Origin: Mucilaginibacter sp.
GTDB taxonomy: Bacteria; Bacteroidota; Bacteroidia; Sphingobacteriales; Sphingobacteriaceae
Direction of reading: 5' to 3'
DNA length: 40,478 nt
Assembly (NCBI GenBank): GCA_025929405.1
Contig: JAICMD010000003.1
Location: forward strand, 1-40,478
Shown here one piece after another: positions 22,946-26,674 of this stretch. The notes beneath the pieces are model-generated. The model worked only from the letters and a program-made list of their open reading frames with translations. It was not told where the DNA came from and searched no databases. How positions within the stretch are numbered: position 1 is the stretch's first letter; each line of letters begins with the position of its first letter. A program made the position numbers and the translations under genes.

Positions 22946-24577
22946 ATGTCAAAACAAGTTAAATATAATGTTGAAGCGCGTGATGCCTTAAAAAGAGGTG
23001 TTGATGTTTTAGCAAACGCAGTAAAAGTTACTTTAGGCCCTAAAGGACGTAATGTAATTATTGATAAAAAATTTGGTTCGCCGGCAATTACCAAAGATGG
23101 TGTAACTGTAGCAAAAGAAATTGAGTTAAAAGACTCATTAGAGAATATGGGTGCCCAAATGGTTAAAGAAGTTGCCTCAAAAACTGCTGATATAGCAGGT
23201 GACGGTACCACTACTGCAACTGTATTGGCACAGGCTATTGTAACTGCCGGTATTAAAAACGTAGCAGCAGGTGCTAACCCTATGGATTTAAAACGCGGTA
23301 TTGACAAAGCTGTTACTGCAGTGGTTGAAAATTTAAGAACACAATCACAAACCGTAGGCGAAGACAATAACAAAATAAAACAGGTTGCTGCAATATCAGC
23401 CAATAATGATGAGTTGATAGGTTCATTAATTGCTGATGCAATGGGTAAAGTTGGTAAAGACGGTGTTATAACTGTTGAAGAAGCTAAAGGTACTGAAACC
23501 GAAGTTAAAACTGTAGAAGGTATGCAGTTTGACCGTGGTTACCTGTCGGCTTACTTTGTTACCAATACTGATAAAATGGAAGCAGAACTGGAAAATCCTT
23601 ATGTGCTTATCTACGACAAAAAAATATCTTCAATGAAGGAATTACTACCTATTTTGGAGAAACAGGTACAAACAGGCAAACCATTATTGATCATTTCTGA
23701 AGATTTGGACGGCGAGGCTTTATCAACTTTAGTGGTAAACAAAATCCGTGGTTCACTGAAAGTTGCTGCTGTTAAAGCACCCGGCTTTGGCGATCGTCGT
23801 AAAGCTATGTTAGAAGACATTGCTACCCTTACAGGTGGTACTGTAATATCAGAAGAGCAAGGTTACAAACTGGAAAATGCCGACCTGAGCTACTTAGGTA
23901 CTGCAGAGAAAGTAGTTGTTGATAAAGACAATACTACTATCATCAACGGCGGTGGCCAGTCAGAAAATATCAAAGGCCGCGTTAATCAGATCAAATCTCA
24001 GATGGAAACTACAACATCTGATTATGATAAAGAAAAATTGCAGGAGCGTTTAGCTAAGTTAGCAGGCGGCGTGGCTGTATTATATGTTGGTGCAGCTACC
24101 GAGGTTGAAATGAAAGAGAAAAAAGACCGTGTTGACGATGCATTACATGCAACCCGTGCCGCTGTTGAAGAAGGTATAGTTGCAGGTGGTGGTGTTGCCT
24201 TTATCCGCGCGGTTGAAGCTTTGGCTAATTTAAAAGGTGATAACGAGGACGAAAATACTGGTATCCAGATTATCCGTCGTGCTATTGAAGAACCATTGCG
24301 TCAAATTTGCGAAAATGCAGGTATTGAAGGTTCAATTGTAGTGCAAAAAGTAAAAGAAGGCAAAGCCGATTTTGGTTACAATGCACGTACTGATAAATAC
24401 GAAAACTTAATTGGTGCCGGTGTAATTGATCCAACCAAGGTAAGCCGTGTAGCTTTAGAGAACGCAGCTTCAATTGCTTCGATGTTGTTAACAACCGAGT
24501 GTGTATTGGCTGATGATCCTGAAGAAGCACCAGCAGGCCCACCAATGGGCGGCGGCGGCATGGGTGGTATGATGTAA
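22946..24577 (+). CDS. groEL: Chaperonin GroEL
   Basis: Full-length 543 aa, [34 protein letters not shown]-terminal GGMGGMM. Confidence 0.98.
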
Positions 24578-24610: not shown

Positions 24611-24647
24611 AAAAACCCTTGTATGCAAAAGCATACAAGGGTTTTTT
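24611..24647. terminator. Intrinsic terminator shared by groEL and the convergent TPR-like gene
   Basis: AAAAACCCTTGTATGC-aaaa-GCATACAAGGGTTTTT. Confidence 0.88.
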
Positions 24648-24786
24648 ATTGCACCATCTGTTGTAACGTTATTAACTGTTGTTTTTTCATTTCAGAAAAG
24701 TCAGACAACGCAATCCAACTATTGAACATGCCAAAATACCAATCGGTAATTTTACCATTTACCATAATATCATTAGTAAACTTGTT
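24646..24786 (-). pseudogene. Out-of-frame C-terminal remainder of the 24759..25547 gene
   Basis: Minus-strand -1 frame reads NKFTNDIMVNGKITDWYFGMFNSWIALSDFSEMKKQQLITLQQMVQ*, ending at the terminator. Confidence 0.7.
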
Positions 24787-25547
24787 TTTATTTGCTCAAA
24801 CAAAAGCGGATTTGCCAAATATTGTGCAACTGATGATAGATAGTTTTTTACAAGCATCTCTCGTTTTGAATAACTATTAACAGTGGGTTTGTTCAATATT
24901 TCAATTGCAGTGGCAGGTTTTTCGGCCATTAATAAAACTTCGGCGTAGTCAAGCATAAATGTTGGTTGCATTAATATATTCCGTTTAATATTTTGATCAA
25001 CAACAAGCTGATAGGTTATTACCGCACTATCTATCAGTTGATGATAACGCATCTCATTATGCAACTGTTTATATAAAATAGCAGCCTGTTGTATGCTGCC
25101 GAGGCCAGGGCACATGTTATTTTTTAAAAAAAATAAATGAGTTTTTGCAGCTTCTTCCAATTGACCTAAAGCATATTCTGCATTTGCTTTATTAATTTTT
25201 ACCCAGTTGGTAATGTTGATATTGTGTTTATCGTTCTTAATTTCCTTAGCTATAAAGCGGTTAAAATCATTAATTGCCCCTTTGTAGTCAGATAATTTAA
25301 AGCGGGCCTCACCAATTTGCTCCCATAGTACATTTTTATTGTAGGCATTACTATCTAATAGTATAGCTTGTTGAGCATTCTCAACTATTTTGGGCCAATT
25401 TTGCTGGTAATAAAGCGCCCGGATATTCCTGGTTAGCATTGTGGCACGGTCACTTGGCGATAAATTATCATTTTGCGACTGGGCAAACGTACTATTCGAT
25501 AATACGATTAATATTACCGCTAAAAGTTTTGAGAAAGGTTTAAGCAT
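24759..25547 (-). CDS. Secreted TPR-like protein, apparently truncated by a frameshift at its 3' end
   Basis: Signal peptide MLKPFSKLLAVILIVLSNSTFAQ; helical-repeat body; annotated C-terminus (TSLLMILW) looks out of frame. Confidence 0.75.
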   Translation of the reverse strand: MLKPFSKLLAVILIVLSNSTFAQSQNDNLSPSDRATMLTRNIRALYYQQNWPKIVENAQQAILLDSNAYNKNVLWEQIGEARFKLSDYKGAINDFNRFIAKEIKNDKHNINITNWVKINKANAEYALGQLEEAAKTHLFFLKNNMCPGLGSIQQAAILYKQLHNEMRYHQLIDSAVITYQLVVDQNIKRNILMQPTFMLDYAEVLLMAEKPATAIEILNKPTVNSYSKREMLVKNYLSSVAQYLANPLLFEQIKTSLLMILW

Positions 25548-25760
25548 TATTAAAGTTATAAAATATCCTAAATAATTTGTATTTAATTATATACAGCAAA
25601 TTTTCAATACTACACACTTCGGTTTTGTCAATTCATAGTAAACTGACGGTCATCAGTTAATCAAATGATTAATTTCATAATATCCGTGCTACAATTAACC
25701 ATATTTTTGTGTACTGATCTTATTATTTAAAAAAGGCACAACAATTGAATATACTATTAT

Positions 25761-25862
25761 ATGAAACATTTAACAGCTACAACAAAACATCTCCGTTTAA
25801 CCTTAGTGGATTGGGTGTTATTTAAAGGTCCTGAACTGTTTATAACTATTTACGGAAAATAA
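25761..25862 (+). CDS. Possible small ORF (33 aa, MKHLTATTKHLRLTLVDWVLFKGPELFITIYGK)
   Basis: Intergenic ORF downstream of a TATTTTTG match at 25702-25709 and upstream of mscS; no homology evidence. Confidence 0.2.
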   Translation: MKHLTATTKHLRLTLVDWVLFKGPELFITIYGK

Positions 25863-25888
25863 TAATTAGTAACTTCGTGACTCTAAAC

Positions 25889-26674
25889 ATGAAGCTACAG
25901 GAATTATATGATCTGGCCTATAAATGGCTTTTAATAAACGGCTCAAAACTAATAATAGGCTTAATAGTATTATTAGTAGGGTTAAGGCTCATTAAAACAT
26001 TCACGCTGCGTATTCGCGCACGCATGAGCCGCCGAAAAGTACACTCTTCATTACAACCATTTTTTCTTAGCCTTGCAATTACCGCATTATATGTATTGCT
26101 TATAATATTGGTATTAAATATTGTTGGCTTCCCACTGGCTGTATTTAGTACTATTTTGGGCGGCTTCACTGTTGCCGTTGGCCTTGCACTTTCGGGTACT
26201 TTTCAAAACTTTGCGGGTGGAGTATTAATATTATTATTAAAACCTTTTGAGCTTGATGACAATATTGTTGCCCAGGGACAGGAGGGCAAGGTAACGTCCA
26301 TACAAATATTTTATACTGTATTAATTACTGCCGATAATAAAACCATCATTATTCCTAACGGCAAGCTTTTTAACGAGGTAATAGTAAACATCACCCGCGA
26401 AGGTAAACGCCGTCTTGATTTTGAAGTACGTTTAGGTTACTATGTAGATATTGACCAGGTAAAGGAAATTATGCTGGAGACTGTAAAATCTACTACAGGT
26501 ATATTGGCTGATCCATCAAACCGTGTAGGCATAATTGCACTGGAAGTTGATTCGATACGTTTTGCAGTAAATGTATGGGTGCAGCCTGCCAACTTTTTAA
26601 CTACCAAAATAGCCCTGCAGGAAAACATCCTTAAAAATTTAAAAGCTGCAGGGGTAAGGTTGTTAGGGACTTGA
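25889..26674 (+). CDS. MscS family mechanosensitive ion channel
   Basis: Three-TM N-terminus, VGLALSGTFQNFAGGVLILLLKPFELDDNI pore/beta-domain signature. Confidence 0.93.
   Translation: MKLQELYDLAYKWLLINGSKLIIGLIVLLVGLRLIKTFTLRIRARMSRRKVHSSLQPFFLSLAITALYVLLIILVLNIVGFPLAVFSTILGGFTVAVGLALSGTFQNFAGGVLILLLKPFELDDNIVAQGQEGKVTSIQIFYTVLITADNKTIIIPNGKLFNEVIVNITREGKRRLDFEVRLGYYVDIDQVKEIMLETVKSTTGILADPSNRVGIIALEVDSIRFAVNVWVQPANFLTTKIALQENILKNLKAAGVRLLGT

Follow-up and report, generated by a model that had tools for sequence, protein, structure and literature searches.

The window, i.e., the whole 40,478-nt stretch of Mucilaginibacter sp. DNA that was analyzed, contains an open reading frame of 262 amino acids (24759-25547, minus strand) situated between groEL (22946-24577, plus strand), with which it is convergent, and a gene for an MscS-like protein identified by eye (25877-26674, plus strand), from which it is divergent. 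The encoded protein begins with a signal-peptide-like N-terminus that is followed at once by a TPR region, for which several Pfam TPR matches were obtained, all of them below the threshold, and it ends with FEQIKTSLLMILW and a stop codon. Another 46 codons and a stop codon are present on the same strand in the neighboring frame, where the sequence from 24786 to 24646 reads NKFTNDIMVNGKITDWYFGMFNSWIALSDFSEMKKQQLITLQQMVQ; upstream, this second frame is closed by a TGA at 24798-24796. The coordinates of the ORF, the second frame, the closing TGA, and the tail end, all given in an earlier note on this DNA, were borne out on re-reading the sequence. The stop codon of the tail lies inside the foot of a perfect palindrome resembling an intrinsic terminator (24650-24607; 20-bp stem, 4-nt loop, T-rich tail), which is common to the convergent groEL and the remnant gene.

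Relatives of the window gene were sought in 150 genomes of the genus Mucilaginibacter. A single-sequence search of genome contigs with the window protein recovered no relative, and only weak family-wide matches were obtained with the single window sequence as a query. Relatives were found in only four other genomes, namely the metagenome-assembled genome LF-bin-485 (G218), M. corticis MAH-19 (G159), M. myungsuensis KCTC 22746 (G184), and, as a fragment, genome G186; the family is patchy in the genus, with any match at all in 5 of 150 genomes. The orthologs in LF-bin-485, M. corticis, and M. myungsuensis are proteins of 939-975 amino acids with a signal-peptide-like start (by eye), LRRs, and then a TPR region. 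All three are convergent with groEL, a conserved synteny landmark, and in the two genomes with contigs reaching far enough (M. corticis and M. myungsuensis) the ortholog lies on the groEL-facing side of the orthologous mscS-like gene on the opposite strand. The window gene thus occupies the position typical of the family.

The TPR region of the window gene is homologous over its length to this LRR-TPR family of the groEL-mscS gap; the remaining ORF shares 38-39% identity with the TPR part of the orthologs (35-40% for the TPR region), and the C-terminal motif, NGK followed by W-x-F-x-MFN-x-W, is also common to the three proteins and the window. In contrast, the N-terminal LRR region and the uninterrupted C-terminus of the orthologs are both missing from the window copy. 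The earlier note overlooked a 5' truncation, by which the LRR half of the orthologs, roughly 600-700 amino acids, is absent. No specific curated family for the secreted LRR-TPR protein was matched in the libraries searched, and nothing relevant on the groEL-mscS LRR-TPR locus was found in the literature. The LRR half of the LF-bin-485 protein (L054:4186-7110) has sub-threshold matches to type III effector LRR models and to a fibronectin-binding protein; assignment as a type III effector was rejected, since the NCBIfam score of 121 bits against a cut-off of 450 probably reflects generic LRR similarity.

The gap between groEL and the mscS-like gene varies in content. In M. myungsuensis (L055:5945-9769), a short SP+TPR gene and an SP+LRR+TPR gene stand in tandem, and in M. 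corticis (L053:4050-8977) an SP+LRR+TPR gene stands beside one with SP+LRR only. The LRR and TPR parts are therefore separable, as the TPR-only and LRR-only paralogs share the gap with the long forms. At five other loci (L058, L059, L060, L061, and L064), only about 400-600 nt separate groEL from the mscS-like gene, as in most relatives examined, and a profile search of the groEL-mscS region of nine relatives detected no vestiges of the family.

The earlier note had proposed that a frameshift detaches the last 46 codons of the gene, and comparison with the orthologs supports this. The ortholog C-termini (...VNGKITNWDFEMFNTW...KQQQLLDLQNIAK) have the same ending as the window tail, and the tail can be aligned without gaps to the C-terminus of the LF-bin-485 protein (...VNGKITNWDFEMFNTWLEFSGFSKTKQQQLLDLQNIAK) and to those of the other orthologs, which are alike. 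Conversely, the last eight codons of the window ORF, TSLLMILW, are outside the ancestral frame, and no relative compared has a similar ending; the observation that the earlier note had named as a refutation, orthologs stopping at such a sequence and lacking the downstream segment, was thus not made. The tail is 46% identical to two orthologs, and its BLOSUM62 scores against the ortholog C-termini are 120 and 118 (the two nearest orthologs) and 99. Since these scores are far above both the maxima of 2000 codon shuffles of the tail (50-51 for the two nearest orthologs, 50-55 across all three) and the scores of the remaining five frames against the two nearest ortholog C-termini (16-23), the similarity is not due to chance. 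A profile built from the three Mucilaginibacter orthologs, with the window left out, was searched against the whole genome of the window and matched the core (24777-25481, profile positions 13-243, E 3.6e-59) separately from the tail (24655-24798, profile positions 237-284, E 1.1e-12). Both matches lie in the window, and a second profile of seven orthologs gave the same pair (E 2.9e-64 and 3.3e-17). Thus, by alignment, shuffling, and profile search, the window frame is disrupted relative to the intact orthologs, and the conserved C-terminal segment of the family is encoded in the window DNA out of frame with the rest of the gene.

The frame changes within 24775-24795 (minus strand), around FEQIK/TSLL, in an interval that contains ATAAAAACAAG; the shift was placed 3' of the TGA at 24798-24796 because that codon closes the second frame. 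Ungapped alignment with the orthologs picks up again directly 3' of the junction, where the orthologs have TTAAAAAAGTCT, GCAAAAAAGGCG, and, in M. myungsuensis, ATAAAAACCAAG. The last of these is nearest to the window in sequence at the junction, and relative to it the shift would equal the loss of a C beside the A run. The A5 run to which the earlier note drew attention is indeed present in the shift interval, but an extra A is not singled out: judging from the ortholog sequences, the lost base may be a C, a reading that fits no worse than the loss of an A, which is possible too. Since one ortholog has ATAAAAACC at the A5 site, so that a C may have been lost, there is no need to invoke homopolymer slippage. 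The run itself is unremarkable. The gene has nine runs of at least 5 nt, one of them T8 and three of them A6, and the whole window has about 350; the T8 and A6 runs are located in the intact part of the gene.

Three causes had been suggested for the shift, namely a recent 1-nt deletion, phase-variable or transcriptional slippage, and a sequencing error. The recent deletion is the best supported. Phase-variable or programmed frameshifting, in which the A5 run would toggle the C-terminus between a short form and a long one, is highly improbable, even though an A-rich stretch lies inside the required interval and a ribosomal -1 slip at AAA would reach the frame of the tail. Tandem re-pairing is not possible on the zero-frame heptamer at the junction, A_AAA_ACA; apart from A5 and this heptamer, the shift site has neither a long homopolymer nor a slippery heptamer or a tandem repeat. 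The downstream RNA structure is not unusual (z -1.2), A5 runs are common in the window, and the orthologs are read straight through, so that the shift site is not conserved. Reported slippery sites are A_AAA_AAG and A_AAA_AAA, with A7 giving 10% in a reporter, and transcriptional slippage sites are An with n>7 (PMC3711429), all longer than the A5 considered here; insertion errors in transcription climb exponentially with run length (PMC5574713). Programmed frameshifting was rejected on the run length, the heptamer, the RNA fold, and the non-conservation, and transcriptional or phase-variable slippage likewise finds no support, given that the run is only A5, that longer runs occur elsewhere in the gene, that no ortholog is shifted at this site, and that a base other than A may have been lost.

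A sequencing or assembly error, with the true frame intact and encoding a complete short TPR protein of some 300 amino acids, is a more serious alternative, although we consider it unlikely. The assembly is a draft (3.24 Mb, 358 contigs, 87% complete), the tail has no sign of relaxed constraint, as expected of a shift that is not real, and a survey of prokaryotic frame transitions deemed BLASTP-validated singletons likelier to be sequencing errors than real indels (PMC3711429). The window gene resembles the indel pseudogenes and singleton frame transitions of that survey in having a single transition that is not conserved in relatives, with homology on both sides and no slippery site or tandem repeat, but differs from them in that its lesion sits close to the 3' end and the rest of its ORF is free of damage. 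To assess the general frequency of indels, the window and 60 other contigs, 510 kb in all, were set against 1.37 Mb of sequence from relatives. The comparison covered 95 kb of unique aligned coding sequence, in which the window gene was the only frameshift-like pair, and a generally indel-ridden assembly is therefore unlikely. Further arguments against an error are that the site is only an A5, whereas the same gene has T8 and A6 runs in its intact part, and that the opposite end of the gene has been reduced as well.

Whether the shift is a mutation or an assembly error, the tail evolved as an in-frame coding sequence until recently, since it is as conserved as the core, retaining nine of the ten columns that do not vary among five orthologs (26/32 for the core), and since its differences fall most commonly at third codon positions (24/50 relative to LF-bin-485 and 26/56 relative to M. 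corticis). The TPR core has kept about 240 codons open and free of further damage. In a tree built on the TPR region, the branches of the window and of the intact M. myungsuensis protein are similar in length. Both features point to constraint until recently.

The loss of the LRR half could not be traced to a remnant: no LRR half was found elsewhere in the own assembly of the window (a draft of 358 contigs), and nothing convincing was found in 25481-25880, including the 330 nt upstream of the window gene. More distant members, from other genera of this taxonomic family, likewise have open frames of 881-1026 amino acids, and thus the long form is probably ancestral. Because of these distant long frames, and because the TPR-region tree gives moderate support to a place of the window among the long forms, the absence of LRRs from the window gene is most likely derived. 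That the window gene is the ortholog of the short M. myungsuensis paralog was not supported by the tree, nor did the AU test reject placing the two together (p 0.27). This paralog (L055:5945-6937) is like the window gene in its signal-peptide-like start, TPR region, lack of LRRs, and location in the groEL-mscS gap, but unlike it in its intact C-terminus, about 28% identity to the window protein, and very long branch. As the paralog is intact, the absence of LRRs alone does not make a broken gene.

The consequences of the shift for the protein were considered on an AlphaFold model of the TPR region of the LF-bin-485 ortholog (287 residues, mean pLDDT 88), an all-helical array whose best Foldseek matches in the PDB are TPR proteins, headed by one from Parabacteroides. 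The post-shift residues, modeled with block confidences of 85-95, form the second half of helix 234-251 together with helices 260-267 and 273-286, and several invariant residues lie in this part. On this model, the shift cuts one C-terminal helix of the window product and removes the last two, and the product is thus probably non-functional or impaired.

The short TPR form with its new eight-residue end could also be a working gene, perhaps produced by recombination of tandem short-TPR and LRR-TPR paralogs. The intact SP+TPR paralog beside the LRR-TPR gene of M. myungsuensis, the LRR-only paralog of M. corticis, and the open and conserved core of the window gene are consistent with this; however, the lost end contains invariant residues and confidently predicted helices, and an end like TSLLMILW occurs in no relative, so that we regard such a functional product as quite doubtful. 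Equally doubtful is the broader version, in which the groEL-mscS gap would be a small domain-shuffling locus subject to repeated duplication and splitting into TPR-only and LRR-only genes, with the TPR-only window protein and its altered C-terminus as a working product.

The window gene is best explained, with a probability of roughly 0.72, as a secreted LRR-TPR gene in decay, reduced to a TPR remnant that recently acquired a single-base frameshift close to the 3' end. Genes of this kind stand between groEL and the mscS-like gene in a few Mucilaginibacter species, and in the orthologs a signal-peptide-like start is followed by LRRs, a TPR region, and a C-terminal helical cap that is conserved. 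We infer that the LRR half was lost first, leaving a short open TPR gene, and that a single base was then lost in the ATAAAAAC region, recently enough that the tail still resembles conserved coding sequence. The outcome would be a 262-aa TPR protein with its C-terminal helices cut or missing, although this short product may still work. In the one-contig genome G186, an isolated C-terminal piece of ~85 residues (L056:6131-6475) located away from groEL apparently changes frame near its end, the second piece not being significant alone (E 1.3); this piece is an independent relic of the family, which decays elsewhere too.

For annotation, the predicted 262-aa product would count as a truncated remnant. 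The locus would represent a snapshot of stepwise gene loss, with the front domain already gone and the end newly frameshifted, and looks like the ordinary decay of a gene, not like a novel mode of control.
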